Source of the DNA: a virus
DNA length: 25,615 nucleotides
Virus record (IMG/VR): IMGVR_UViG_3300038701_000353
Coordinates: 1 to 25,615 of that record
Reading direction: 5' to 3' (one strand)
The notes beneath the pieces were generated by a model that was not told the origin of the DNA, made no database searches, and saw nothing but the letters and a program-made list of their open reading frames with translations. A program made the position numbers and the translations under genes. This document shows positions 1 through 25,306 of this stretch, piece by piece; position 1 is the stretch's first letter, and each line of letters opens with the position of its first letter.

Positions 1-2034
1 CGTGCCCGTCAGATCGCGCGCAACGATGATGATTTCACCAACATTGCCCGCATAAGTCGAGCCGCCGCCAATCAAGCCACCAATCACCGCCTCCGTCACA
101 GTCACCGCCGATAGATCAACATCGGTGCTTTCCGTGGTATCCACGCCGTCGATCCAGAGCGTCATGTCGGTGCCGTCATACTGCCATGTGATGGCGTGCA
201 AGGACGTATCCGCCGCGCCCATGTCTGAACTGGTCCCCGTGCTGGTGATAACACGGTAATTGCCGTTCGATCTGTGACCAAAGGCCAGCAGGTTGTCCTC
301 CGCGCCATTCGTCAGGTGGCACAGATAATAGTTGCGGTCTGTCCTGAGTACGTCACCGTAGAACGTGAACGAAAAGCCCGTATCCGGCATGACGGTGTGC
401 AGGCTGGTGTGAGATAGCACGTCACTGGCCAACGCCAGCGCTGTGTGGCCGTTGATCGTGGTCGTGGTCACATCGCCGCTTGTGACGGACAGGTCATAGC
501 CGTTGGTAGACAGGTCTTCCACGCTGCCCGATCCGCCTGTGACGATGGTGCTGGATTGGCCATCGTACCAAGCGCCCGTGCCAATGTCGGTAATGCCTGC
601 GGGCCATGTCGGGCCGGAGGTGGGCGTACCTTCGCCCGTGGCGTTCTGTTCCGTCGATCCGCTGGCGTTTGTCGCCGTCACGTCACAATCAACAACGGAC
701 CCTTCATCCGCAACGACAAGCGTGTATGTGCTGGACGTGGCCCCGGAAATGTCCGCGCCGCCCCGAGTCCACTGATAGCTGTAGCTGGACGGGCTGTTGG
801 TCCAAGTGCCGTTGGATACAGTGAGCGTCTGCCCGGTGTTGAATGTGCCCGTGATGGCCGGGGCCGCAGTATTGACCGGTGTCCCGTCATCCGTGGTGAT
901 TGTCCATGTGTCGGACACGCCGCCAACCGTAACCGACACGTCGGTTGTTCCCGCCGCTGTGGCGTTGGCCGTGCCGCGCAACTCGATGGTCTGGTACGGG
1001 TGGACAATCCCCGCAGATGTCGTCCAATCAATCTGCGTGGTGTCGTCCAGGTCGTTGATTGTGCGGTACTCGCCACCGGTCACGGTGATAGCCGCGCCAC
1101 GGTTGATACCTGTAATCGCCTCGGTCATCGAGACGGTTACAGTCGCAGAGGCGGTTTGCCCGTCTGCATCAACAAACGTCAGATTCGTCGGGGTGACGTC
1201 CGTCAATTCATCGTAATTCGCGGAATAGGTGCCGTTCCAGCGATGGAAGGCCCGGGCCCCAAGGCCATCAATCCAGTCTACATCCGGGTGCAGGCTGTTG
1301 AACGTGCCTTCAAAGTCGGCGTCGATGATTCCAAACCATGCATTCGAGTCGGCCCACAATTCATCGAGCTCACGCAGTTGGAACGCCCACGACACAGAGG
1401 TGTTGCCGGTGTATGGCCGGATACGCACCGTGATAAAGTCGCCGTCGTCATCAATCCGCGACCGCCAAGCGCTGATGAAGTCGGCCCAGGTGCCGTCTGT
1501 GCCGTCCGTGCCGTAATAGGCATCAAACTTAGTCTGGTTCTTGCTATCGGCCTCGCCCTGGTTCCAGACGCTGACGGTCTGATAGGCAACGCTTGCGCCA
1601 TCCAGAAGACCCCTTGCCGCTGTTACCTGATCTTCCAGCGTTTCGAACAATTCATTTGTGCTTGCCGGATCCCAGTCGGTGCCTGGGCCGCTTTCAACCG
1701 AAGACCCACCTTCAGCCAGCTTGACGATATAAAGGGCCCGCGACGGAAATGCCTGCCGGTATTGATAGGCAAACTCTGCCTCTGGCCCCCACAACGTAGC
1801 TGTGCCGTCAGGGTTGGCGTTGGTGCCGGGTGTGTAACTGAGCCAAGCGTTGCCTGCGGTGTTCAGGATATACACGTTTGACAAAGACGCATATCGCGCC
1901 GGAACCGTCTCCCCGTCGGTGCCGCTTGCCGCCATGTTGCTTTGACCAGCGAAGATGGCCAAGAGCGGGTCTGTCGATCTGGGCACGCCGAAGCCTGTGC
2001 CGGAGCCAATCGAAATGCTGATGTTGATTTGCAT
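1..2034 (-). CDS. Tail spike with SGNH acetylesterase-like domain, Ig-like and LamG-like domains (3' end outside window)
   Basis: 678 codons are visible and the frame is still open at the left edge, so the C-terminus is missing. Residues about 25-265 look like the sialate O-acetylesterase/CE6 branch of SGNH hydrolases: block I GQSNM at 30-34 (nucleophile Ser32), block III VWNQGEAD at 156-163, and a C-terminal block with SLHPD around His249. The usual DxxH is NSLH here (Asn246), so the acid of the triad may be absent or elsewhere. Residues about 389-465 form a bacterial Ig-like repeat (APAITG, YQW, DEG, VTATN pattern), and about 480-678 resemble a concanavalin/LamG fold. Such proteins de-acetylate host surface polysaccharide during adsorption, so this is probably the receptor-degrading spike. 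It is the most promoter-distal gene in view, 7 nt after the preceding stop. The ribosome site is weak. Fold call fairly confident; substrate unknown. Confidence 0.8.
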   Translation of the reverse strand, partial: MQINISISIGSGTGFGVPRSTDPLLAIFAGQSNMAASGTDGETVPARYASLSNVYILNTAGNAWLSYTPGTNANPDGTATLWGPEAEFAYQYRQAFPSRALYIVKLAEGGSSVESGPGTDWDPASTNELFETLEDQVTAARGLLDGASVAYQTVSVWNQGEADSKNQTKFDAYYGTDGTDGTWADFISAWRSRIDDDGDFITVRIRPYTGNTSVSWAFQLRELDELWADSNAWFGIIDADFEGTFNSLHPDVDWIDGLGARAFHRWNGTYSANYDELTDVTPTNLTFVDADGQTASATVTVSMTEAITGINRGAAITVTGGEYRTINDLDDTTQIDWTTSAGIVHPYQTIELRGTANATAAGTTDVSVTVGGVSDTWTITTDDGTPVNTAAPAITGTFNTGQTLTVSNGTWTNSPSSYSYQWTRGGADISGATSSTYTLVVADEGSVVDCDVTATNASGSTEQNATGEGTPTSGPTWPAGITDIGTGAWYDGQSSTIVTGGSGSVEDLSTNGYDLSVTSGDVTTTTINGHTALALASDVLSHTSLHTVMPDTGFSFTFYGDVLRTDRNYYLCHLTNGAEDNLLAFGHRSNGNYRVITSTGTSSDMGAADTSLHAITWQYDGTDMTLWIDGVDTTESTDVDLSAVTVTEAVIGGLIGGGSTYAGNVGEIIIVARDLTGT

Positions 2035-2041
2035 GGTGGCC

Positions 2042-2338
2042 CTATTCGCTGAACGCAGGCAAGGTGATGGTGCCGTTGGACACCGTCACCGGAGACGGGA
2101 AGCGCGTGGCCTGCGGGGCGTTCGCGCCGTGGGGCAGTTTGAGGGTGACGTTGATAACGCCGCTTGCGCGGGTCACATCCGCAACGACAAAATCGTTGTT
2201 GATGGTTTCAGCCGTCATAACCTCACCCTCAGTGAGGCCGCTAAAGTCATAGCTTGCGCCGTTGATGGTCAGCACGTCGCCCGATTTCGAGTAAACGGGG
2301 ATGGTGTCGGACCTGACGGGGGAATAGGTAATGCGCAT
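2042..2338 (-). CDS. Small conserved-type phage protein between fibre and spike genes
   Basis: 98 residues, start ATG at 2338 with an AGGAG site about 7 nt upstream. Part of that site is made by the TAG stop of the preceding fibre gene, so the two are tightly coupled. The sequence is acidic and rich in predicted beta strands (repeated T, V and N, GEVMTAETINNDF), with no Cys, no signal peptide and no membrane helix. I do not recognise the family. Its position between a tail fibre and a spike suggests a small virion component such as a fibre connector or an attachment or assembly factor; this is inference from order only. Confidence 0.75.
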   Translation of the reverse strand: MRITYSPVRSDTIPVYSKSGDVLTINGASYDFSGLTEGEVMTAETINNDFVVADVTRASGVINVTLKLPHGANAPQATRFPSPVTVSNGTITLPAFSE

Positions 2339-2347
2339 GTGGATCTC

Positions 2348-3031
2348 CTAGAACCATCGCCCAACGGCAGTGACGTGATTGTTTGACACGGTCACAGTGT
2401 CGGCCCCGCTGATGAAGAAAAAGCCGACCGTCGCCGCGTTTGCCGTCACCGTGAACGGCCCGCATCCTGCCACGTCAGACCGCAGCACTGCGTCTGTCCA
2501 ATCAGCGGACTTGAGTGACAGGTTGAACACCGCCGTCGGGACCGCTGAAAACTGCGCTGGAAACGTCCAAATGCCGCTGCAAAGCGTGGCCGCCGATGCC
2601 GTGACCGCGTGCCCGTCATGCCAGCAAATCTGGGTGCCGTCCGCAAACCGCACATATTCGCCATTGGCGTTTGAACCCTGCTCGATCAAGGCCCCCGTGG
2701 GCACGCCTGACGACTCGGATACCGTTCCGATGGTGTCGCGGTACGCAAACGCCCCCGCCCCGCTTGCCGCGATAATTTTTCCGGCTGCTGACGCCGCCCC
2801 CAAGGTGTTCAGGTCGTCCAGCACGTCGCCTTGCTCTTGAGCGCTGAGGTTTCCCCTCGCGCCGCTTGCGGTTGTTGCCCCCGTGCCCCCGTAAGCCACT
2901 GGTCGTGCTGTATTCGCGTCCTGCGCCAAGTCTTGAAGCGGCGTGTTGTGCTGGGAGGCAGTCGCGGTTGCCCCGCTGACCGCAGTGCTGCCCGAAGGCA
3001 GGCTGTATGATCCGTCACCGGCTCTAGGCAT
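2348..3031 (-). CDS. Tail fibre protein
   Basis: 227 residues. The N-terminus (about 1-60) has the low-complexity SLPSGSTAVSG / ATASQHN / DLAQDAN / PVAYGGTGATTASGAR pattern common in phage tail-fibre N-terminal or shaft regions. The C-terminus (about 120-227) carries the GEYVRFADGTQICWH and WTFPAQFSAVPTAVFNL pattern, a receptor-binding tip domain found at the ends of many fibres, with beta-rich sequence throughout. Ribosome site AAGGAGG lies 8 nt upstream of ATG 3031. This site and the start codon can pair in a short hairpin (listed separately). It is probably a homotrimer acting in host recognition beside the spike. The family call rests on recognised motifs only. Confidence 0.85.
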   Translation of the reverse strand: MPRAGDGSYSLPSGSTAVSGATATASQHNTPLQDLAQDANTARPVAYGGTGATTASGARGNLSAQEQGDVLDDLNTLGAASAAGKIIAASGAGAFAYRDTIGTVSESSGVPTGALIEQGSNANGEYVRFADGTQICWHDGHAVTASAATLCSGIWTFPAQFSAVPTAVFNLSLKSADWTDAVLRSDVAGCGPFTVTANAATVGFFFISGADTVTVSNNHVTAVGRWF

Positions 3032-3041
3032 AAGAATGCCT
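3026..3041 (-). promoter_or_regulatory. Short hairpin over the fibre gene's ribosome site and start codon
   Basis: On the minus strand AGGCAT-TCTT-ATGCCT is a perfect 6-bp stem with a 4-nt loop. One arm contains the end of the AAGGAGG ribosome site and the other contains the fibre ATG (3031-3029). It could tune translation initiation, but a 6-bp stem this short can also arise by chance. Confidence 0.3.
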
Positions 3042-3054
3042 CCTTGTAATTCTC

Positions 3055-3273
3055 ATGGGGGATGCCAAAGTCAATTGCATGACTACTGTGCAAGAGTTCT
3101 ATTTCATCATGAGCGCTGTCATCAGCGCCAACTTCCTGACAATCATGTTTGTCTATTGCCTGCATCAGGCCAGCACCGCCGAAAAGGCAGGGAGGCCGAT
3201 CAAGATCAGGCATTATGCGGGGTTGGTATTCTTCCCGTTCATGGCCCTGGTGGGCATGAGATACATGTTTTAG
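3055..3273 (+). CDS. Small two-helix membrane protein, the only plus-strand gene
   Basis: 72 residues from ATG 3055, or 64 from ATG 3079; neither has a clear ribosome site. Two hydrophobic segments are visible: FYFIMSAVISANFLTIMFVYCL and, near the C-terminus, YAGLVFFPFMALVGM, joined by a short basic loop (KAGRPIKIRH). It fills exactly the 238-nt gap that has no minus-strand gene, and its stop overlaps the stop of the convergent ejection gene by 4 nt. Codon third positions are GC-rich, as in the neighbours. It could be a moron-type inner-membrane protein (for example superinfection exclusion) or a holin-like protein, but no family is recognised. The lack of an obvious plus-strand promoter keeps confidence moderate. 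Confidence 0.5.
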   Translation: MGDAKVNCMTTVQEFYFIMSAVISANFLTIMFVYCLHQASTAEKAGRPIKIRHYAGLVFFPFMALVGMRYMF

Positions 3274-5291
3274 GGCGCAACCGCCGCCGCAGCGGGTTCA
3301 CGGCCCGTGTTGCGCATCAACGCCTCCATCAGGCGCTTTTTTACTTCCGAGTAGTCGTGTTGACGCATGGCGTTGACGACTGGTGCCGCATCATTGGACA
3401 TCAGGATTTTGGCGATTGCCGACCGTGTCGCTTCGTTTTCGCCTTTTACAATCGGCCTGACCGCCTCTGCAAGGTTGCCCAGCATTCCCACCGGGTTCAG
3501 TGTGGCCACGTTTGCCGCCGCCGATGCAGCTTGTGTGATCTGGTCGGTGTCCACCATATCCGCGAGGTTGGTTGCCGTCGCAGATCCCCCCGTCACGCGG
3601 CGTGATGTCTCGTACATCTCCCGCTCACGCTCAAGGCGACGCTTCAGCAAGCCTGGGTCATCCGCCAACTCAGACGATAGCGCATCCGCTTTTGTGCTGT
3701 TGAATGGTCGCGTTGCATTTGCACCCATGGCCTTGTTGTTCTGCAAGTCCGTGATGATGTTATCCCCGAACCCGATCTGAGCGCCTCTTTGCTGTTGGGC
3801 TGGAAGGCTGTGGAATGCCGCAAGCGCGTCCTCGACGCGGGTCTTTTTCAGCAGGTCGCCGCCAGTCGTCATGGACTTGAGCACATCAGACCCCGCGCTG
3901 AAATTCTGATTGGCCCCATAGAAAATATCGCTGGATTCCTCAAGCTGCGATTTCAGCCGTTCGACATACGGCTTCACAGCGTTCGCCAAGCCACGTTTTT
4001 GGTCCTTATAGAACCCATCAACCTTTTCGCGGTATTCGATCCACACATCACGCACCCGGCCAAAGTCAGACAGGTACGCATCGCTGCCATCCGGAGTCTT
4101 CCCCGCAAGCCGCGCCCGCATCTTCTTGAGTTCGGCCATGGGTGCACTGTCCTTGATGCCCGCCGACGGGGCTTTGTTCGCCGCCAAGAAGGTGTCGATC
4201 TCGGCAATCAGCGGGGTCACGTCCACCGGGTCCGCGTCCCGCGCCGCCCGCTTGATCAGCGCGTCAAAGACTTCGCCGCGATTGGTTTTGACGGTTTTTT
4301 CGATCTCGGCCCTGGTCTTGCCGCCAAGGTTAAAGGCTTCGTCAGAAAACCGGATAACCCTGTCTTTTGCGTCGGATTGTCGATCCCGGAGATATTCCGC
4401 AATGTCGTCCCCCGGCTGACCACCAGCGCGCGAAAGACCGTTCGCCCGTGCCTGACCGGCTGTGCCAAGGGCATCCATTAGACGGAATTCCGGCTGCCCG
4501 TCCTGCTTGGCTCGCATGAGCGCTTCGACAATGTCCGTCCGGTCTTTACCTGACCGCTCAAGGGTCTCGATGATTGCGTTGTTGGCCCGCCGCTCACTTG
4601 GGGTCTTTCGGATGGCCGAGACAGCCCCGCCGAGAATATCCGTGATTTTGCGCCCCGCTGCCGATCCCAGCCCCACCGCCGCAGGGGCGATAGTTCCGAG
4701 GCCTGCGCCGACCGGCCCATACTTCACAGCGCCTGCAAGTCGTGACGCGTTGTCGGTGCCCATGCCTCCGCCGTACAATGTTCCCTCACCGCCACCGACA
4801 GCGAACCCCGCGCCCATTTGGCCCCATATTGACGGCCCTCCAAGGTTGCGCGTGGCAAGGGCCGTGGCAAGCCCCGTACCGGTTGCCCCCGCCGTCCGAC
4901 CGGCTGCGAACTGACCCGGAAACGCTTGTTCCGCAGCCGCGTCCTTAGCCCGCATGGTGTCACGGTATTCATCACCTTTGACCATGCCGCCAATTTCATC
5001 AGCCCAATTGAGGGTTGCGCCTTGTTGCAAGCCCCTCATGCTTGCGCCGAATTCGCCGGTTACGATTTCATTAGCGGGCTGAGCCGCCTGCAACCGCTGC
5101 AACTCTGCTGCCTCGGCAGGGCGCAGATCGGTCAAGCCCTCAAGGACTGCCCGCGCGTTTTCGTCCTGCGCAGCTTGCCCGTAGGACGGGGCATAGCGCT
5201 TGGCACGGTCACGAAGAACCCGCGCCATTTCAAGGTCGCCCGCAGCCGCCGCGTCCTTGGCAAGGCGCATGATTTGCTCATAGTCTGCCAT
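3270..5291 (-). CDS. Ejection-type internal virion protein with Gly/Ala-rich segment
   Basis: 673 residues, mostly predicted helical and charged. The N-terminal about 35 residues (YEQIMRLAKDAAAAGDLEMA) form a short amphipathic helical unit also seen at the start of other podoviral internal proteins. Residues about 129-224 are Gly/Ala-rich with many small-xxx-small spacings (GRTAGATGTG, GAGFAVGGGEG, GPVGAGLG), as expected for a segment that enters a membrane. Residues about 230-600 are long helices. The start at 5291 lies one base after the stop of the large muralytic protein, with a GGAAAG site upstream. Its position among three large virion proteins downstream of the nozzle gene suggests a DNA-ejection protein of the P22 gp7/gp16/gp20 or T7 gp14-16 kind; this is inference from order and composition, not homology. 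Confidence 0.75.
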   Translation of the reverse strand: MADYEQIMRLAKDAAAAGDLEMARVLRDRAKRYAPSYGQAAQDENARAVLEGLTDLRPAEAAELQRLQAAQPANEIVTGEFGASMRGLQQGATLNWADEIGGMVKGDEYRDTMRAKDAAAEQAFPGQFAAGRTAGATGTGLATALATRNLGGPSIWGQMGAGFAVGGGEGTLYGGGMGTDNASRLAGAVKYGPVGAGLGTIAPAAVGLGSAAGRKITDILGGAVSAIRKTPSERRANNAIIETLERSGKDRTDIVEALMRAKQDGQPEFRLMDALGTAGQARANGLSRAGGQPGDDIAEYLRDRQSDAKDRVIRFSDEAFNLGGKTRAEIEKTVKTNRGEVFDALIKRAARDADPVDVTPLIAEIDTFLAANKAPSAGIKDSAPMAELKKMRARLAGKTPDGSDAYLSDFGRVRDVWIEYREKVDGFYKDQKRGLANAVKPYVERLKSQLEESSDIFYGANQNFSAGSDVLKSMTTGGDLLKKTRVEDALAAFHSLPAQQQRGAQIGFGDNIITDLQNNKAMGANATRPFNSTKADALSSELADDPGLLKRRLEREREMYETSRRVTGGSATATNLADMVDTDQITQAASAAANVATLNPVGMLGNLAEAVRPIVKGENEATRSAIAKILMSNDAAPVVNAMRQHDYSEVKKRLMEALMRNTGREPAAAAVAP

Positions 5292-5292
5292 G

Positions 5293-8200
5293 TCAGCGCG
5301 CTTTCCTTTTGTCTTCTTGCATTTTCAAATACATATCAAACTGCTCGTCGGTCATCGCCCCGATTTGCGCAGGGGAAAAGATACCGTCTGGGAGTTCAGG
5401 AACCGGCATTTCAACGCCGCCTGTCGGCTCAGCAGGCGGCCTGACCGAGTCAACCGCGTCCTGCACCCGTTGCAAGGATTCGGCCTCTGGCGCTGGTGTC
5501 GCTGGCGCAGCCGGAGCTTGACCCAAGTTATCGGGCCGCGCCTTGGGACGCGGGCTTTCCTTGATTGCGTCTTTGCCGTAAAATTTCTGCGTCCCGTAGA
5601 ACAGCGGGTCGGGCATTTCCGCGTTGATGTCGCCAGCAAGCGTGGCTTCAAGCACGCCCATATAGCCCTTGCGCATATTCGCCTTGAATTTGATTGTCTC
5701 CAAGCTGTCGCCCGCTTGCGCGAAGTACATGTTGACGATGCGGTCAAATTCCTCTGGCGTGGCTGCCGCGCCGGTAGACAGGCGCAACGCGCCCTCAGCC
5801 CAAGCACCGGATGCGGCCTTGTACATCTGGGCTTCCTCAGACTTGACCCAGTTCCCCCCAAGCACGCCGTCAGCAAACCTGTCCTTGAGGTTGGACGGAT
5901 CGAACCCCTTAGCCTCAATCAGGTCGATGGTTGGAGAGGTCTTCTTCTGGACGTTGTTGAACATAAAGATTTTACGTTCAGCCTCCGTCATGTCGTTTTT
6001 GTCACCCGTCGCGACCTCAAGGTCGGGATTGACCAAACGGGGGCTTTCCTGCCCGGTCGGGTCAACGTAATACAGCCGCCCGTCTGCCAGCTTTTCGGTC
6101 TTATATTCCTTGGCCGCAGGCTCCATGACGCCAGCAATCGCACGCGCGACTTGATTGTATTCAGGCGTACCTTGCTCAAGTCCAAGCCGCTGAGTGATTG
6201 CGTCGATCTCCTGCGCCACTTTTGGCAATTCAGCGGGCTTATTCGGTTCACGAATAACCTTGCCGCTCAAGTCGTAAACGCCGCTCGGATCAAGCCCAAG
6301 CTGACGTTCCATGTCGTCGGTCATAAAGCGCGCCGTCGGGTCTTGCTTGGGCTGCCAACCAATCATCTTGGCGTATTCCTGACGCAGCATCATGCGCTGG
6401 CGCGGGTCTTCCCATGCCTCGGCCTTCTTGAGTTGCTGAACAGCGTAGGACTTGGACACCGGGTCAAGGCCGCGCTGGTGTTGGGTCAGGAAGGCCCTGA
6501 TCTGATCCGCAGAGGGGCCGCTGTACTGCCATTCCGGCGGTAGCTGGGGCATGTCGCCCAGTGGATCAGGAGCGCCTTGTCCGGTTAGCTGTGGGGCCTG
6601 CTGGGGCGCGAAGGCATTGTTGCCGCCGCCGCCTGCAATCACATCACCACCCTGCCCGCCGATCACGCCTTGCGGTTGCGGCTGGGCAAACGGTGCCGTC
6701 GGCGCATTGGCCATGATGTCGGTCAACTCGCCTCGAACCGCGCCAGCGTGCGCGCCCCATGTCGGGGCCTGACCGGACGAATAGTCTTTGTGCGGAACCA
6801 TATCCATATGGAAGGCAACGCCGCCCATATAACCCTTGCCCGCGCCGATGCCTTTGGCACCAGCCCGCGCCGCAGCCCGCATGAACCGCATGGCCTCCGG
6901 CGTGCCGGGTTTGACAAGCCCGTCTTTTGTCTGGACGCGAATATCCGCCGCAAGGCCGGTCCCGTGCCGGTTGCTGCCGTGCCGTGGCTTGTCGCCCTCC
7001 TGACCGCTGAACACGGTGATCCGCGCGCCGGGGCCGAAGGCCTCAGCCGCCGCGACGTCCAGCGCCGCCAAGATTTCAGGATTTGGCGAATAGGGGCGTT
7101 TCTTGCCTTCTAGGTCAAAGTCGAATTTGGTGTATTTGGGTTGGAACGGCGTGATGCCGGGGTCTGCACTGCCCTGCGTCGAAACGGTCGGCGTGCGGCC
7201 AATCAGCGCCAGCGCCTTTTCCCGATGCCCCGCCATCTGCTTTTCGACCTTGTCGCGGACTGTGCCCGGTGCCCCGCCGTTATTCGCATCCGATCGGTTG
7301 TAGAGGCCCGGCGCGCCTGCGTTGATGGTGCTGTAGATGTCGAGAAGCCCCATGCCGGGCTTTACGCCGTTATCTCGCAGGTATTTCACGATAGCGCCGT
7401 CTGCCCCAAGCTGAGAACCCGCTGGGTTTGACCAGTCCACACCGTATTTTTTCGCCTGGGGGACGCCGAATTGAATCAAGCCGCGATGCTGGCCCCATTG
7501 CGTTGTTGGGCCTTTCTTCGTCGGGTCAAACGTGCCTGCGGTTTCGTAGCTGATAGCCGTGGCCAGATCGACCGGATCGACGCCCAATTCCGTCGCCGCC
7601 TCAATGATACCTGACGCAATCGGGTCACCGCCTTGACCACCGACTTGCGTATCATCGCCAAGCGGAAGCGTGTCATTCCCCGACCCGCCCAGCGGATCGG
7701 GCGATGCTAAAGGGGGCAAAGCCGCCGCGTTCTGGATCGGAGGCAGGCCCAGCGGATCAGCAGCCGGGGCCGCCGGAAACGCACCCGCGTTGTCCATCGA
7801 CACGCCGAATTCCGGTGCCGGGGCCTTTGGTGTGACCGGGTTCGCTCCGAACGTGTCCAGCATGGCCCCAGCAGAGGCCGTAGGACCGCCGCCCATGATC
7901 AAGGCGTCCTGTGAGGTCATCGGGCCATTGATAGACGGTTCAAGCGCCGCAGGAGCGCTATAGAGCGGGTCTGTGCCGCTGCTGCCGGTCTGCCCCCCAT
8001 ACCCGCCGCTCGCGGGGGCGCTTGAGCCACCACCGCCCGGAGCCGCGAAAGGATTACCGCCACCGGTGCTGCCACCGAACAAACCCGCAAAGGCCTCGGT
8101 CGCCGCGCTCTGGTCATCTATGTAGGCAATTGATCCGGGGTCAGCCATGCGGTTGGCATTGGCCGCGCCCATTTTCTCTTGTTGCTTGAGAAGCAAGGCT

Positions 8201-17882: not shown

Positions 17883-19925
17883 TTAGTCTCCGATGCCTAC
17901 GGGACGCTCTTGCGTCGCCTCTAGTTCGATTTCTGCGGCATCTTTGAGGGTGTTGATCTCAACCTCGCGCTCGGCGAGGGTTTGAGCGTCAACCTTGATG
18001 CCTAGCTCGCGCATTTTGATGGCTTGGTCCTGCTGACGTAGCGTGCTGTCCAAGTCCATTTTGTAGCGGTCATTCTGGATACGAGCCTGCTCAATGGCCT
18101 GCTTGCCCGCCATCTCCTGCTGTCGCACCTGCATCTCCTGGATGCGGATCTGTGTGTTCGTGTCCAACTCGCGTTGGCGAAACTCAATATCAGCTTGGGC
18201 TTTCGCCTGCTCGGCTTGCGCCTTGGCCTGCTCGGCCTGCATCGCGGGGTCTGGCCCCTGCTGCTGCTGACCTTGTGCTTGTTGTTCCACCAGTTCCGTG
18301 AATTGGTCGATGGCCCCGCCAAGGTCACGCCCTGCCCTAAAGCCACCAGCGCCAAACCGCATCAACTCAGCCATGAACGGTGCAGATTGCGGGAATGCCT
18401 CTACCGCGCCCTGTGCTTGGCCGATAAACGACCCGATGGCTTGGAGGAATTCGATCCGGTTTTGCTTCTCGGCCATTTCATTCGGCGCGATGGTGCTGTC
18501 GGTCTCGACCTCCATTGCGAAAGGCCGCATCCGCTGGTCTTGCAGTAGCTGCGCGATGCTTTCCAATGGCACGTCGTCAACCTTCTGGCCTTGCGCCTGC
18601 GCCGACTGGATTTCTTGCATGGTCGGGAACCGCATCCCCGCCATGGCCATCAATTCTTGGATGTCGCGCGTCTCGGCGTAGATTTCCGCCTTCATGGACA
18701 GCACGTCCAGCCCGATGCGGACCATCTCCTGCTGTTTCGACCGGACACGGACGCTGCCAAACTCTGCCTTGAGGTTTTGCGCCCCTAGCGTTTCTTGCGC
18801 GTCCGTCACGCCACGCATGATGTCGCTGAGGCCGGTGATTTCGTACACGTCCTCGATCAACTGCTTGCGCAACTGGATCAGGTCACTGATGACCCCGGCA
18901 ATCTCTTGCACCGGCAGCCAGATAATGCTGTCCTTGAGCGATTGACCGCCCAAGGCGGCAAGGTTGCTGATCGGCACAAGATTGGACCGGTTGTCGGTCT
19001 GCTTCATCGCCGTCTCAATGGCCTCGCCAACTTCCGACGTGCCCGACGCATAGAACCCTTTCATCCGCAGGGACTCGGTCAGCGACGATATGCGATCCGT
19101 CAGTTCGTGGATTTCGTCCGCTTGGTCGCGGTAATAGACGTAGTCGGGAACAGGCTTGAGTGTTGACGGCTCCAAGGTGCCATAAGCGGGCTTGGGGCAC
19201 GGGAAGAAGCCCTTGACGTCAAACAGCGGGTCCGCTTCGTCAAGGACGTCATCAACGCCCTCGGTCACCCAGTAGACGCGGTTGTCGGGCTTGGACCAGA
19301 TTTCCCACACCGCGACCTTCTTATCTGTGGTCTTGTAATCGTCGTTACGCTCTTTGCCGACCTGTTCGGCCTCGGCCTCTGCCCATTTGTCGGCCTTGTC
19401 GGGGAAGCGCTCCTTGAAAGGCTTTTTCGCCAGATACGCACGACGCGCCACCCAGCTTACTTCCTTCCAGCGCCGCGCCGGGTCATGCACGAAGTCAGCC
19501 CTATCGACGTGGATGGCGGATCCGTCATCCAGCACCCAGACAACGCCGCGTGAGAACAAGCCGAGGTCATCACGGACCTCAAGCAGCGTCTCGTGCAGGT
19601 CATCGTCCTCAACGTCAAACTCAAGCGTCCGCTCAACCAGTTCCGACGCTTTGCGGACCACTTCGCCTGTGTCGCTGTGGCGTGGCATCACGACGGGGAC
19701 CGGGGGCCGCTGATAGACTGCGGGCAACATGACCTGCATATTCGACCAGAAAATCTGCAACTCGCGCTTGCCACCGGCATCGCCCAGCTTTTTCAGGCTG
19801 GCGTATTTGTCGGACACGTTCTTGCATGACCTCTGCCAGCCCTCGAACGCCTTTTCGGCGTCCTTGATGGCCTGGAGCCAAGGCTTGGCAGTGCCTGTCA
19901 GCTTTGGCTTGTCGTCTTCGGTCAT
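17883..19925 (-). CDS. Portal protein
   Basis: 680 residues. ATG 19925 overlaps the terminase stop (ATGA) and has an AGGAG site. Motifs: N-terminal helices with KDAEKAFEGWQRSCKNVSDK; ELQIFWSNMQVMLPAVYQRPP (about 55-75); RGVVWVLDDGSAIHVDRADFVHDPARRWKEVSWVARR (about 125-165); DYVYYRDQADEIHELTDRISSLTESLRMKGFYA; and EITGLSDIMRGVTDAQETLGAQNLK (about 365-390). These are the usual portal sequence of P22-like and related podoviruses. The C-terminal 150 residues are a Gln-rich helical barrel-like coiled coil (QAEQAKAQAEQAK, IQEMQVRQQEMAGKQ), as in the long-barrel portals. Forms the dodecamer through which DNA is packaged and ejected. Confidence 0.92.
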   Translation of the reverse strand: MTEDDKPKLTGTAKPWLQAIKDAEKAFEGWQRSCKNVSDKYASLKKLGDAGGKRELQIFWSNMQVMLPAVYQRPPVPVVMPRHSDTGEVVRKASELVERTLEFDVEDDDLHETLLEVRDDLGLFSRGVVWVLDDGSAIHVDRADFVHDPARRWKEVSWVARRAYLAKKPFKERFPDKADKWAEAEAEQVGKERNDDYKTTDKKVAVWEIWSKPDNRVYWVTEGVDDVLDEADPLFDVKGFFPCPKPAYGTLEPSTLKPVPDYVYYRDQADEIHELTDRISSLTESLRMKGFYASGTSEVGEAIETAMKQTDNRSNLVPISNLAALGGQSLKDSIIWLPVQEIAGVISDLIQLRKQLIEDVYEITGLSDIMRGVTDAQETLGAQNLKAEFGSVRVRSKQQEMVRIGLDVLSMKAEIYAETRDIQELMAMAGMRFPTMQEIQSAQAQGQKVDDVPLESIAQLLQDQRMRPFAMEVETDSTIAPNEMAEKQNRIEFLQAIGSFIGQAQGAVEAFPQSAPFMAELMRFGAGGFRAGRDLGGAIDQFTELVEQQAQGQQQQGPDPAMQAEQAKAQAEQAKAQADIEFRQRELDTNTQIRIQEMQVRQQEMAGKQAIEQARIQNDRYKMDLDSTLRQQDQAIKMRELGIKVDAQTLAEREVEINTLKDAAEIELEATQERPVGIGD

Positions 19926-21286
19926 ATGCCTGATCTCCTGCCGGTTTCTTCCGGCTGAGGCGGTCCAGCCAGCATGATCTGGCCGGGCTTGGGCTTCGCA
20001 ATCTCTTGGACCTTCTTGATGGCGAGGTCCCGATAGCCTTGTGCGGCGTATCTCATGGCGTCAGCGCAGTGGCTGGCCCAGTTGTGCAGGGGCTTGTTCT
20101 TAAAAATCTGCGCGCCCTCATCATACTCGGTGCGGTAGTTGCGCAATGCCTCAAGGCCATATTCACACCGGGTGCCGTCGAACCACATGCGCGGCATTAG
20201 CTGGCGAACCCCGTTGATGCCGTCGTCTAGAGACGATGCCGGGAGAAGCACAGGCTTGCGCCCCAGCGACACCAGCGTTTCCAGCCGCGATCTGCCCGTG
20301 TCCAGGCTGCGAACCTTGGCGTCATGCGGAACGTAGTCATATCCGCCACGGTAGCCACGGGTTTCAAGTTCCGTGACGTAGTGGCCGAGTGTCATGCCAT
20401 GGTCTTCCAAGTAATCGATGAGGCGCATACCCTCAGGGCCAGCCTGGAAAACCCATATTGCCATACTGTCGCCGATGCCCAGATCCCACGCCGTATGGAT
20501 TGGGAGGTCGTGGCTCAAGTCAACGCTTGTGATGCGGCCTCCCCGCTTCGCGTCGTTGAGCAAGGCAACATAATACGCGCCTGCGACTACAGCCCCGTAT
20601 CCGCCTTCCCAGATATGATCATAACTATCCGGGTCGGACGTTAGGCAATATTGCCGCTCTGCCTCAAGGACCTTCGGGAAGCGGTGATTATCCGACCAAT
20701 TGGCCTCAACAACAATTGACGACTGCGGCGGGCTGTCGCCCCTCAACAGCTTGTCCACCGCGTCAAATTTACTTCTAGGGTTCCAGCCGAACCACAGTTC
20801 AGACTCAAGGCCTCTGTGGGTATCTTCCCAGCGGATTGTGGGCCGCAGTAGGCTCATCGAATGGGCGGTTATCGATTGCGCCTCTTCCCCCCAGGCGCGA
20901 TGAAAGCCCTCATAAGACTTGACGCTGTCTGCGGTGTGGTCCTGCATCCCGGTAAATGCAATAACGCCGTCACCCGGCGTTGATATGCGGTCCGTGTAGA
21001 CCCTGAACCCGTCTTGTTCGCCCAACCCAAATTTGTGCAGCTTGGATTCCAGCAGAAACTTGGCGCTTTGCTTCAGCGACTTCTGGACCTCGCGAAAACT
21101 GAGAAGCCGCAAGCCCTCGCCCGCATCACCCGGCCATCTTAGCGCGTCCTCAATGCCCAATTCAGCGAAGAAGTGCGACTTGCCCGACCCGCGCCCGCCA
21201 TACGCGCCCTTGTAGCGCGCTGGCTCAAGTAGCGGGTAAAAGACCTCACTTGTCTCAATCTGAAGGTCGAACAATAACCCGCTCAA
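19922..21286 (-). CDS. terL: Terminase large subunit (PBSX/Terminase_3 type)
   Basis: 454 residues. Walker A GGRGSGKS at 30-37; Walker B region FHRAWGEEA at 128-136 with catalytic Glu134/Glu135; coupling-motif-like FGWNP at 166-170. The nuclease domain begins with TAWDLGIGDSMAIW (Asp268), continues with PHDAK (Asp322) and ends at HCADAMRY (Asp409). The start is TTG at 21286, or TTG at 21274; no ATG precedes the Walker A in a sensible place. It overlaps the small-terminase-like gene by 32 nt. It cuts concatemeric DNA and pumps it into the head through the portal encoded next. The type predicts nothing certain about cos or pac packaging without the ends. Confidence 0.93.
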   Translation of the reverse strand: MSGLLFDLQIETSEVFYPLLEPARYKGAYGGRGSGKSHFFAELGIEDALRWPGDAGEGLRLLSFREVQKSLKQSAKFLLESKLHKFGLGEQDGFRVYTDRISTPGDGVIAFTGMQDHTADSVKSYEGFHRAWGEEAQSITAHSMSLLRPTIRWEDTHRGLESELWFGWNPRSKFDAVDKLLRGDSPPQSSIVVEANWSDNHRFPKVLEAERQYCLTSDPDSYDHIWEGGYGAVVAGAYYVALLNDAKRGGRITSVDLSHDLPIHTAWDLGIGDSMAIWVFQAGPEGMRLIDYLEDHGMTLGHYVTELETRGYRGGYDYVPHDAKVRSLDTGRSRLETLVSLGRKPVLLPASSLDDGINGVRQLMPRMWFDGTRCEYGLEALRNYRTEYDEGAQIFKNKPLHNWASHCADAMRYAAQGYRDLAIKKVQEIAKPKPGQIMLAGPPQPEETGRRSGI

Positions 21287-21521
21287 TTCGCTGGATTACA
21301 GGCTTTTCAGGGTCGCCGCTGTGCTCGATTGCCTTGAGGTCAGGCAGCGTTTTCTTGAGCAGAATTTCAATCGCGCGCAGCCTTTGTGGGTCAATTTCAA
21401 CGACTTGGCCCCCTTCGTCCTCTTCCTCAAAAGCAAACTGCTGCAATCGCTTAACAAGCTGTGTAGTCTTGATTGCGTCGCGCGACCGCTGCTCCTGCTT
21501 TGGATTAAGCCTTGCTGCCAT
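21255..21521 (-). CDS. Small terminase-like protein
   Basis: 88 residues, ATG 21521. It is helical and charged: MAARLNPKQEQRSRDAIKTT, LVKRLQQFAFEEEDEGGQVV, EIDPQRLRAIEILLKKTLPDL. Similar short proteins lie just upstream of terL in many alphaproteobacterial phages and prophages. Position, size and the RLRAIEILLKKTLPDLKAIE helix support a DNA-binding terminase partner, but no helix-turn-helix is obvious, so a regulatory role is possible. No strong ribosome site. Confidence 0.65.
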   Translation of the reverse strand: MAARLNPKQEQRSRDAIKTTQLVKRLQQFAFEEEDEGGQVVEIDPQRLRAIEILLKKTLPDLKAIEHSGDPEKPVIQRIERVIVRPSD

Positions 21522-21794: not shown

Positions 21795-22088
21795 CTATTG
21801 GACCTCTCCCAGTTCTTCTGGCTCGGTCAGCTCGTCTTCCCTGCCATCAAAGAACGCATCGACAATCTCGCAAAGCACACGCTTAGTGCTTTCGCGGACC
21901 ACTTCACGGTCCACACCGGCAACAACGCCGATATTCCCACCGCCGCTGGCCAACCAAAGACCGTCTTCATATTCTATGTCGATCTTCATCCCACCCCACA
22001 TTGCGACATAGACGAAGCCATCAAGCCCCGCCTGTTCCCGGTTATCCCGCCGGGTACGCCGCCCGTGCCGCACAAATCGGGGCAACAT
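21795..22088 (-). CDS. Hypothetical small protein, first gene after the late promoter
   Basis: 97 residues from ATG 22088; later ATGs at 22001 and 21989 are possible. The N-terminal about 25 residues are Arg-rich. The central part (MKIDIEYEDGLWLASGGGNIGVVAG) looks like a small beta-structured domain, followed by a helix (REVVRESTKRVLCEIVDAFF) and an acidic tail (DELTEPEELGE). There is no ribosome site at 22088, which lies only about 17 nt below the predicted start point of the promoter at 22112-22140. Not recognised. Confidence 0.5.
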   Translation of the reverse strand: MLPRFVRHGRRTRRDNREQAGLDGFVYVAMWGGMKIDIEYEDGLWLASGGGNIGVVAGVDREVVRESTKRVLCEIVDAFFDGREDELTEPEELGEVQ

Positions 22089-22111
22089 GGCGCAATTCGG
22101 TCTTGACAGAC

Positions 22112-22140
22112 TATTTAGCCGATTTTGTCGGGGGAATCAA
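22112..22140 (-). promoter_or_regulatory. Predicted sigma70-like promoter for the late genes
   Basis: Minus strand: TTGATT at 22140-22135, 17-bp spacer, TAAATA at 22117-22112. The spacer contains CCGACAAAATCGG, a 4-bp inverted repeat. It reads toward the first late gene and lies after the terminator at 22157-22196. Confidence 0.5.
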
Positions 22141-22156
22141 TGGGGGTGGGTGCGCT

Positions 22157-22196
22157 GAAAGAAAAGCCCCGGCGCGCTGGCAGGCGCGACCGGGGC
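22157..22196 (-). terminator. Rho-independent terminator at the end of the early region
   Basis: Minus strand: stem GCCCCGG(T)CGCGC, loop CTGCCA, stem GCGCGCCGGGGC, followed by TTTTCTTTC. The stem is 12 bp with one bulged base, very GC-rich, with a 9-nt pyrimidine tail that is mostly U. It lies between the promoter at 22234-22262 and the late genes, and could end both early transcripts and transcripts from that promoter. Confidence 0.8.
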
Positions 22197-22226
22197 GGGT
22201 GAACCTATCCATGCGACAGCGGAAGG

Positions 22227-22257
22227 CCTGCAAACTATAGCACGTCATTCTTGCAGG
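22227..22257. repeat. 7-bp inverted repeat around a -10 box, possible operator
   Basis: CCTGCAA (22227-22233) and TTGCAGG (22251-22257) are perfect inverted copies separated by 17 bp. The space holds the predicted -10 box. A regulator dimer or a pause-related factor could bind here. Confidence 0.4.
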
Positions 22258-22262
22258 TACAA
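22234..22262 (-). promoter_or_regulatory. Predicted sigma70-like promoter upstream of the terminator
   Basis: Minus strand: TTGTAC at 22262-22257, 17-bp spacer, TATAGT at 22239-22234 (-10 matches five of six consensus bases, -35 three of six). It starts just after the NusG-like gene. The predicted RNA would reach the terminator stem after about 30 nt and stop after roughly 70 nt unless read-through occurs. Confidence 0.5.
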
Positions 22263-22279
22263 CGGGGGGCAATCGCCCA

Positions 22280-22864
22280 TCACGCTACCCTCTCCACCCA
22301 ATCAATCGCCGTCGCCAGCTTTACCCTGTCCACGGTCATAATCACGGACCCCTCGCGGACTTCATCGACAACGCCGACCTTGCCCGCGAGTGCCCCCTCA
22401 ACGATTTTTGCCTTGCCGCCGACATAGGGCTGCTTTGCCTGTCGTGCGGCGATCTGTTCAGCCTTGATCTTGTCGGCCAGTTCTTTGACGCGTTCGGGTT
22501 GCTGCTGCATGTATGCGATTTCCGCCTCCGTGATGATGCGCGGCACGTCGCCAACTTTGACCACATCCAGAACAACGCGGCGGTTTTTGATGATGTGCCA
22601 CTGCGGGGCCCGATCCACCTGAATGAAAAGATACCCGCTCGGGTCTGCGATCTTCGTCCGCTTACGGTCTCGCTTTTGACCCGGCTTTGCTTTGCGGGGC
22701 GGGTCGCGACGCCAGCGATGCGGATACCATGCGTCTAATGTGCCTGCGTTGGCGAATAGGGCCTCAGCGACGCTCTCCTGCCCGCTGAGTACGGTCATGA
22801 TGTACCAGCGGGGGTCACAGGGGATCCCGAGCAGACGGCTCTGTGTGGGGCTTTTTGGGGTCAC
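22280..22864 (-). CDS. Phage-encoded NusG/RfaH paralogue (transcription antitermination factor)
   Basis: 194 residues. The NGN domain spans about 18-118: RWYIMTVLSGQESVAEALFANAG, then AWYPHRWRR, DPSGYLFIQVD, WHIIKNRRVVLDVVKVGDVP. A long charged helix (about 118-146) follows, then a KOW domain (147-178): YVGGKAKIVEGALAGKVGVV. A basic insertion (RKAKPGQKRDRKRTK, about 57-71) sits between the NGN strands. The start is GTG at 22864 in a GTGA overlap with the upstream stop. It binds RNA polymerase and alters pausing or termination. It is the last early gene, directly before the terminator/promoter region, so it probably controls late transcription. Host NusG is elsewhere; this copy is phage-specific. 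Domain call strong; target inferred. Confidence 0.88.
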   Translation of the reverse strand: MTPKSPTQSRLLGIPCDPRWYIMTVLSGQESVAEALFANAGTLDAWYPHRWRRDPPRKAKPGQKRDRKRTKIADPSGYLFIQVDRAPQWHIIKNRRVVLDVVKVGDVPRIITEAEIAYMQQQPERVKELADKIKAEQIAARQAKQPYVGGKAKIVEGALAGKVGVVDEVREGSVIMTVDRVKLATAIDWVERVA

Positions 22865-23779: not shown

Positions 23780-23937
23780 CACTCATCCACCTCTTCAAAA
23801 GCCGCATTGATTGCCGCGATGTCCCAGCCATCAACCAGCAGTGCGCCGCGTATCGTGCCGTCTGCGTGTCCGCCGTGGCGCATGTTGCGGGTCAGGGTCT
23901 TGCAGTCGGCGATCTGTTTTAGCTGGTCAGGGGTCAT
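23779..23937 (-). CDS. Very small early protein, 52 residues
   Basis: ATG 23937 lies in an ATGA overlap with the preceding winged-helix-like gene. Sequence: TPDQLKQIADCKTLTRNMRHGG, then TIRGALLVDGWDIAAINAAFEEVDE. It has two predicted helices around a short basic segment with HGGH. Overlaps at both ends give strong support for translation. Function not recognised. Confidence 0.6.
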   Translation of the reverse strand: MTPDQLKQIADCKTLTRNMRHGGHADGTIRGALLVDGWDIAAINAAFEEVDE

Positions 23938-24269
23938 ACCGGCATCCCCGCAAGCGTGATCCGGTTGACGCGCGTGCCGTGCAGACCGCCCTTGGTGTGG
24001 GACGTGTTCTTTTCGATCTTCGTGACTTGATACCGTCCGAGTCGCGCCAGCTTTTCTTCACGGGTCTCGGTCTGAGGCGGCACGTATGGCTTGTCCGTGC
24101 GGGAATAGTACCGCGAATTGGTTGACGTGACCCGCCGGATGACATGGCCCGACTCAATCAGCGCGTTCAGCCGTGGAGCCATCGCGCGGGCTGTTGTCCC
24201 GAAATGCTTGGCGATCAGGATTGGCGCACGTTCTTCGGACAGGTAGTCGAGAATTTCAGCGTCAGTCAT
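23934..24269 (-). CDS. Winged-helix-like DNA-binding protein, second paralogue
   Basis: 111 residues, ATG 24269, GGAGG upstream. Residues about 3-50 form an H-x-H-x-H array (AEILDYLSEERAPILIAKHF, GTTARAMAPRLNALIESGHV) followed by a wing (IRRVTSTNSRYYSRTDKPYVPP), as in winged-helix replication or repressor domains. It is clearly related to the preceding gene (24266-24592): both share the LxALIESGxVxR / LRAEGYVERL recognition and wing pattern and the KPYxPP motif. The C-terminal part (about 70-111) is basic (RYQVTKIEKNTSHTKGG) and different. Coupled by overlaps at both ends. May regulate early transcription or assist replication. Confidence 0.75.
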   Translation of the reverse strand: MTDAEILDYLSEERAPILIAKHFGTTARAMAPRLNALIESGHVIRRVTSTNSRYYSRTDKPYVPPQTETREEKLARLGRYQVTKIEKNTSHTKGGLHGTRVNRITLAGMPV

Positions 24270-24592
24270 TGCAAGGCCTCCGGCATCTTGGGCAGGGTTA
24301 CGTTGCGGTCGTGGATGTACCCTCCGGTGCAGTGCTCGCTTCTTGTGCGGACCGTGGTCCAGCCGCGCTCCCTATTGATTTCGTCCTTGGTCTTTGGCGG
24401 GGTGTAGGGCTTGGAGGTCCGGACGTACCGGGCACCAGCGCGGCCCGACACCAGCCGCTCGACATAGCCCTCTGCCCGCAGATCCACCATCATGCGGCTC
24501 AATGCGCCTGGGGTGATGACAAAGCGGTTGCAAATCTCGTAGGCAAAGCGAGGTTCAGAAATGAAGTCGAACAGATCCGTGTGGTCAGTCAT
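24266..24592 (-). CDS. Winged-helix-like DNA-binding protein, first paralogue
   Basis: 108 residues, ATG 24592 with GGAGG upstream, overlapping the DnaA-like gene by 8 nt and the next paralogue by 4 nt (ATGA). N-terminal winged-helix pattern: DLFDFISEPRFAYEICNRFV, TPGALSRMMVDLRAEGYVER, then a wing LVSGRAGARYVRTSKPYTPP. The C-terminal part (about 65-108) is basic and carries RTRSEHCTGGYIHDRNVTL. The tandem pair looks like an old duplication. Role not certain; candidate early regulator or helper of the DnaA-like protein. Confidence 0.75.
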   Translation of the reverse strand: MTDHTDLFDFISEPRFAYEICNRFVITPGALSRMMVDLRAEGYVERLVSGRAGARYVRTSKPYTPPKTKDEINRERGWTTVRTRSEHCTGGYIHDRNVTLPKMPEALQ

Positions 24593-24935
24593 GCGATGCC
24601 TCCAAGCTGCCGTGGCGGTGAAAGCTGGGGAGGGTTGAGATTACCGCGACAAGCGCCCGGTTACGGGACTTCGCCAGCAATCCCCGGTATTCGAAACTTT
24701 GGTCGGCCATTTCCGACGCCCTGCGTTCAGCGTTCAAAATCGTGGTGTGGTCCCTGCCGCCCAACTCCCTGCCGATCACGGGCAGACTCTTGTCGGTCAT
24801 CTCCCGAGAAAGGTACACCGCAGCGAACCGGGCTGGCATCAACCGACCCTCTTTGCACGGGCCGGTGATCTCATGCTCTGGAACCCCGAAGGCGTCAGAG
24901 ACTGCGCCGATGATTTGGTTGATTGACGGGTTCAT
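24585..24935 (-). CDS. Stand-alone DnaA domain IV (DnaA-box-binding) protein
   Basis: 116 residues. ATG 24935 has GGAGG 8 nt upstream and an ATGA overlap with the previous stop; the longer frame to 25046 is not preferred. Residues about 5-78 are the DnaA C-terminal domain: INQIIGAVSDAFGVPEHEIT, then RLMPARFAAVYLSREMTDKS, then the signature GGRDHTTILNAERRA (59-73). There is no AAA+ ATPase domain and no N-terminal domain I, so it can bind DNA but not form a DnaA filament alone. It may mark the phage origin, recruit the host machinery or compete with host DnaA. Sits in the replication module. Confidence 0.88.
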   Translation of the reverse strand: MNPSINQIIGAVSDAFGVPEHEITGPCKEGRLMPARFAAVYLSREMTDKSLPVIGRELGGRDHTTILNAERRASEMADQSFEYRGLLAKSRNRALVAVISTLPSFHRHGSLEASHD

Positions 24936-25306
24936 TCTGCTGCCTCCAGTCTCGGGTTTTTGCGAAGAAAGGCCCCTCGGGCCGCAATGATCAAAGCGCG
25001 AATGTCGCCCTCGTTCGGCATCTTGCGGGGATTCTTTTCGACCCATTCACGGCAGGCCTGCTTGACCTCGGGCAACGGGTAGTCGCAAAGCACGTCCATC
25101 CAGTCCTCGACCATCCGGTCATGCGCCATGGTGCCCCTGTCCCGGTCCCAGCCGAACCGATCCATCTTCTTCGCCATGACCTCCAGTTCAACCGCAACCA
25201 TGGCCTTGTGCTGCGCCAAGTCCTGCGAGCCTAGCGATTTGCTCAAGAGCAGGGTCAGGCCGGTTTTCGGGTCTCGGGGTAGGTCGTTGAGCGTGGTTAG
25301 GTTCAT
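24932..25306 (-). CDS. Replication-module protein, possibly helicase-loader-like
   Basis: 124 residues. ATG 25306 has a strong AGGAGG site; the longer frame to 25405 is not preferred. Helical, with DLAQHKAMVAVELEVMAKKM, MVEDWMDVLCDYPLPEVKQACREWVEKNP (about 67-95) and MPNEGDIRALIIAARG. The pattern W-x(3)-L-x-D-YP-x(3)-V-x-x-A-x-x-x-W ... P-x-x-G-x-I recalls the N-terminal part of phage helicase-loader/inhibitor proteins such as SPP1 G39P. This is a weak likeness from memory. Its position between a replication protein and the DnaA-like protein supports a replication role. Confidence 0.7.
   Translation of the reverse strand: MNLTTLNDLPRDPKTGLTLLLSKSLGSQDLAQHKAMVAVELEVMAKKMDRFGWDRDRGTMAHDRMVEDWMDVLCDYPLPEVKQACREWVEKNPRKMPNEGDIRALIIAARGAFLRKNPRLEAAE

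Follow-up and report, generated by a model that had tools for sequence, protein, structure and literature searches.

A NusG-paralogue gene, an intrinsic terminator and a conserved leader block ahead of the terminase genes of a virus: a candidate module for late-gene control

Most known late switches of phages rely on Q, N, put RNA or a phage polymerase. NusG paralogues have also been found on phage DNA: RfaH-like genes on prophages have already been mentioned (PMC7593976), the NusG-like gene of Helicobacter pylori prophages has been suggested to accelerate elongation across a set of genes that includes the lysis cassette (PMC11321410), and the RfaH/NusG gene of Sulfitobacter phage phiGT1, already annotated, is like the one described here phage-borne and placed just before the terminase genes. 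The literature searched held no promoter, leader, terminator or ops analysis for either the phiGT1 or the H. pylori prophage gene. Among the better described paralogues, LoaP reads through leader terminators (PMC12691694), and RfaH, unlike LoaP, is described as having little efficiency against intrinsic terminators (PMC7819879).

The stretch analysed here, referred to as the window, comprises the 25,615 bases of IMG/VR record IMGVR_UViG_3300038701_000353, where every recognisable gene is encoded by the minus strand. Genes of replication type and small genes occupy its right end, followed leftward by the NusG-like gene, a TerS-like gene, the terminase large subunit (TerL), portal, capsid and further virion genes. 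Along the minus strand the order is the NusG-family gene, a first promoter-like string (P1), a terminator, a second promoter-like string (P2) and the terminase and head genes, and all coordinates given below for these elements refer to that strand. The product of the TerS-like gene (21255..21521) has a C-terminus (IERVIVRPSD) similar to that of other TerS proteins, and TerL (19922..21286), identified by profile matches, is the first recognisable late gene, with its best-scoring relatives in phiGT1 and EBPR podovirus 2. A small ORF of 64 aa (21795..21988) was defined by sequence reading, with an ATG in the 21989-21987 region preceded by GGGGUGGG; this ATG at about 21989 is a more likely start than the one further upstream at 22088, which falls inside the conserved block discussed below. 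The early region also encodes, at 24585-25046, a protein with a DnaA C-terminal DNA-binding domain, one of which is present in phiGT1 as well, and two adjacent look-alike small ORFs of ~110 aa (23934-24269 and 24266-24592) which may be winged-helix duplicates.

The product of the NusG-like gene (22280..22864, GTG start) has 194 aa and is predicted to contain NGN and KOW domains. It scores 32.3 bits against Pfam NusG (PF02357; cut-off 22.2) and matches phrog_6386 'transcription antiterminator' at 1.1e-15, and its AlphaFold model combines an N-terminal NGN domain similar to RfaH (Z 10.7; 3.1 A over 100 residues) with a C-terminal KOW barrel (0.8 A). By profile cut-off and by NGN/KOW fold the protein is a member of the NusG/Spt5 family, and the sequence-only reading of this DNA was right in placing a NusG-like gene ahead of the late genes, TerS-like, TerL, portal and capsid genes being found downstream. 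The protein falls below the NCBIfam models for housekeeping NusG (TIGR00922; 29.4 bits, cut-off 135.7), RfaH (25.3 bits, cut-off 144.5) and LoaP (17.5 bits, cut-off 125), and residue K10 of RfaH, which has a DNA-binding role (PMC7593976), is without equivalent in it, the aligned residue being L26. Its C-terminal domain was modelled as a beta-barrel KOW and not as alpha-helical, in a single model built on 16 sequences with a second fold still possible. Pfam, PHROG and NCBIfam profiles reported no Q-family match to this regulator. The gene is probably the last of an early operon, because its GTG start overlaps the stop of the upstream ORF. Close relatives of the protein were restricted to one contig in IMG/VR; the search of named phages, even at E 10, gave only unrelated weak matches, genome_contigs gave none, and a plasmid search retrieved nothing resembling the gap between this gene and the late genes.

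Within this gap the best-supported DNA element is the intrinsic terminator (22157..22196), consisting of a GC stem at 22196-22166 with one bulge and a U-tract at 22165-22157. Its folding energy is -25.8, its tail reads TTTTCTTT, none of 400 dinucleotide shuffles reached -20, and no other terminator on this strand, anywhere in the window, is as strong. We regard it as real; a consensus terminator scanner omits it, probably because of the bulge. The hairpin follows the presumed start point of P1 by ~31 nt, a correct spacing, and the strong terminator that had been claimed about 30 nt past that start is thus borne out. P1 itself (TTGTAC-17-TATAGT, with the TG of an extended -10; 22234..22262) is a sigma70-like string 17 nt past the NusG stop. 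It lies where it had been read by eye, but 14.6% of shuffles contain a site that scores as high, so that it is indistinguishable from chance; its core was absent from other IMG/VR contigs, and together with P2 it fails a 9-of-12 consensus promoter scan. A promoter-like string followed by a strong terminator could also specify a small RNA gene of ~70 nt, similar in size to lambda 6S and with a separate function. An Rfam scan gave nothing above threshold, and the sub-threshold match to a Burkholderia sRNA over 22252-22161, which would favour such a gene, scores 23.4 bits against a gathering value of 40; with a score that far under threshold and no conservation of the region, we consider a small RNA very improbable. 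On inspection, the predicted fold of the P1 leader showed no UNCG hairpin of the LoaP type.

The sequence-only reading had combined these elements into a switch resembling PR'/tR' of lambda, in which P1 would give an RNA of ~70 nt ending at the terminator and, late in infection, the NusG paralogue would load at P1 and read through as Q does. The order of regulator, promoter, terminator and late genes is indeed present, other groups of phages have promoter-like sites at the position of P1 behind their NusG genes (the L017 type, pCB2047 and L075), and LoaP offers a precedent for read-through of a leader terminator. Against it stand the chance-level score and singularity of P1 and the sole close relative of the window, a single contig (L002/L008) whose NusG is 89% identical as protein and 87% as DNA and which lacks both P1 and the terminator, two small ORFs taking their place. 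At the position of the DnaA-domain protein this contig encodes a protein with the same N-terminus and a different C-terminal half.

Homology between the window and L008 resumes at 22152, six nt past the U-tract, and ends at 22013. These 140 nt (22013..22152) are 97.9% identical (137/140, three mismatches) between unrelated flanks, and the late side differs, L008 carrying a TerS and a TerL other than those of the window. P2 (TTGATT-17-TAAATA; 22112..22140), our candidate late promoter, lies within this block. The claim of a second promoter hence keeps its position and gains the conservation of the surrounding DNA, but P2 is poor by consensus, weaker still than P1; its GCTAAAT is also similar to the -10 box of alphaproteobacterial housekeeping promoters. 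The exact P2 core is confined in IMG/VR to the window and L008, and when the block served as query in a distant DNA search of phages, the matches were no more than partial and did not convince. The block probably does not code for protein, because L008 fails to preserve the long ORF running through it and because a start at ~21989 has a good ribosome site; an ORF at 22088-21795 was considered as a conserved gene and rejected, since its frame is lost in L002 beyond the block. Compared with the 13% divergence of nusG the identity of the block is significant (P 6e-6), whereas against the segment in which the window and L008 are most alike (4% divergence) it is not (P 0.16), and a recent exchange of the block is therefore possible.

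The leader downstream of P2 contains a GC-rich foldable part (22025..22083), with a GCCCCG...CGGGGC closing stem around a CCCGG/CCGGG hairpin, whose stability is no greater than that of shuffled sequences. A hairpin motif common to several leaders (outer stem, inner hairpin and a bulge ending in ACA) was seen post hoc and is not claimed: the fold z-scores are not significant and covariation amounts to one compensatory pair. The ops element GGCGGTAGNNTG has no exact match in the window, and with up to two mismatches it has 26 against 28 expected, so that the presence of ops in the window was rejected.

The order of NusG paralogue and terminase extends well beyond this pair. Among 50 viral records sharing a TerL relative and having upstream DNA, six (L014, L017, L038, L056, L058 and L075) contain a NusG-family gene, in every case ahead of TerL and in its orientation; Pfam Phage_antitermQ had no match above cut-off in these 50 TerL-related records. 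The same arrangement was found in L111 and L113, in L127-L134, in the Sulfitobacter phages phiGT1 and, of pCB2047 type, pCB2047-A, -C and NYA-2014a, and in the prophages L147, L166, L177 and L224, the prophage assemblies being named Brevundimonas, Bradyrhizobium and Rhizobium, and one a MAG labelled Blastopirellula. In the TerL-centred loci the local HMM search never placed a NusG match behind TerL or in the opposite orientation. Altogether some twelve groups of phages or prophages, not all of them independent, show this order, which suggests that control of late genes by NusG paralogues is a recurring phage arrangement. In the Brevundimonas prophage L166 a tRNA-Gly gene (tcc; 5379-5452) is located between the NusG-like gene and TerS.

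Several of these groups also have a conserved block behind the NusG gene. In the L017 type the gene is followed by a promoter-like site, TTGC..-16-TATCAT with an extended -10, then by 45 to 90 conserved nt and by any of three TerL families; phiGT1 and pCB2047 share a similar promoter-like site and a 76-nt leader block at 83% identity, and L075 has a comparable promoter-like site after NusG. As read from alignments, and not as a tested motif, the leader blocks are loosely alike, with TTG at -35, an A-rich stretch and (T)GGTA. In L144 (IMGVR_UViG_3300038701_003261) a 4-kb insert parts NusG from the leader block, which stays with the late genes. This insert, at the 3' end of the NusG gene (about 664-4600 of the reverse complement), carries an IS1-like transposase and an ORF named by eye as PemK/MazF-like. 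A conserved promoter-like block behind NusG with exchanged late genes, as in window/L008, the L017 type and phiGT1/pCB2047, supports a late-control role. The block of the window (22152-22013) could alternatively be a module-exchange junction or a packaging site instead of a promoter and leader, as its position exactly at the switch between late modules and beside the terminase genes might suggest. Nevertheless, the block is kept by the window and L008 despite their differing terminases, as is the L017-type block among three TerL families, which argues against a TerS-specific site, and in three groups such blocks start promoter-like; we therefore find a junction or packaging site quite improbable.

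A single scanner, applied throughout, placed a strong terminator between NusG and TerS in three groups only, namely the window, L132 and L056, and most phages with a NusG gene have no terminator there. EBPR podovirus 2 and Bradyrhizobium phage ppBeUSDA76-2, which lack NusG, have a strong terminator before TerS; both (gp13 in the former) had been considered as NusG cases and were rejected, the gene before the terminator being without a NusG-family match. Strong terminators stand directly behind a non-NusG gene and ahead of TerS in related phages (L003 5903-5957; L005 5452-5478), suggesting that an early-operon terminator is common at the early/late boundary whatever gene precedes it. The terminator of L132 lies upstream of the conserved late promoter, a position that suits the end of an early operon better than a gate in the late leader. 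Related phages thus keep the order of NusG and terminase, whereas P1 and the terminator are not conserved. At this locus a switch working strictly by PR'/tR'-like read-through finds no support and is unlikely as proposed. Read-through at 22196-22157 by the NusG paralogue is not indicated by the comparison; it is possible, given that RfaH is weak but LoaP active against intrinsic terminators.

The best independent support for late control by a NusG paralogue comes from phages other than the window. The L014 protein exceeds the NCBIfam RfaH cut-off (147.5 vs 124), and the 63-nt gap between its gene and TerS holds an extended ops without mismatch, CAGGGGCGGTAGCGTG. When IMG/VR was scanned for this 16-mer, 23 contigs were returned, near the chance number, and in four of them (L014, L103, L113 and L111) the RfaH stop is 40-60 nt upstream of ops and TerS follows directly. 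Three of the four are of one type and L111 has a divergent RfaH and another TerL, so that RfaH, exact ops and TerS/TerL occur together in two lineages (L014 3473-4031; L103 11644-12200; L113 3075-3629, reverse complement; L111 5127-5672). No description of ops ahead of phage late genes was found in the open-access literature searched. The proposal that a NusG paralogue acts in place of Q or N is thus favoured by the gene order in all relatives having one and by exact ops in two lineages, but the PR'/tR' mechanism attached to it is not.

As an architecture, the NusG-paralogue late-control module is well supported by the sequence comparisons; its function we infer. We see about even chances for the model as a whole, in which the whole block would be the early-to-late boundary of a podovirus, an early operon would have nusG and the terminator at its end, and a late one would run from P2 through a leader recruiting the paralogue. 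Early transcription would produce the NusG paralogue and be halted by the terminator at 22196-22157; late transcription would start from P2 (22140-22112), and during transcription of the leader the paralogue would bind RNA polymerase via a pause or hairpin signal in 22110-22013 and remain attached, preventing pausing and Rho termination across the ~20 kb of the late operon. Instead of being a gate to be opened, the terminator would insulate the early and late operons, and P1 would be either a look-alike without function or a short start subject to attenuation. We rate the PR'/tR' version, with loading at P1, as unlikely, and as hardly more probable than a further alternative in which the paralogue serves every phage transcript as a general elongation or anti-Rho factor, without a special site here, and the gap is an ordinary early end plus late promoter. 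The latter would fit the ops and Rfam scans, in which no recognised recruitment site was found, and the non-significant leader folds, but not the constant placement at the late operon, the conservation of leaders beyond the promoter or the ops sites of the RfaH-type relatives.

It is tempting to speculate further that specialised NusG paralogues form a separate class of late regulators that replaces Q in many prophages and temperate podoviruses. Each would have a leader signal of its own, which is ops in the RfaH type and some other leader here, and in the window the protein would read through the terminator as well, a combination that we consider rather doubtful. If NusG paralogues do serve as late switches, with a constant leader in front of late modules that can be exchanged, the occurrence of such genes in phages would be explained, new DNA or RNA loading signals would become available for testing, and the phage-borne RfaH/ops pairs would bear on the origin and spread of RfaH-type regulation.

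Among the known systems, LoaP/dfn of Bacillus resembles the window in pairing a NusG paralogue with a leader containing a hairpin and an intrinsic terminator; the window protein, however, fails the LoaP model, no UNCG hairpin was recognised and the terminator is missing in relatives. RfaH/ops shares with it a NusG paralogue with NGN and KOW domains, whereas the window protein fails the RfaH model and has neither a K10 equivalent nor ops, and RfaH of E. coli serves cell-surface and other host operons. With lambda Q and PR'/tR' the window has in common a regulator gene, a promoter-like leader and late genes, and Xanthomonas phage PBR31, which has a related terminase, carries a gene annotated as antiterminator Q a few genes ahead of that terminase. 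Unlike lambda, the window has a regulator of the NusG family, a terminator that is not conserved and, as its best candidate for a late promoter, a site located after that terminator.
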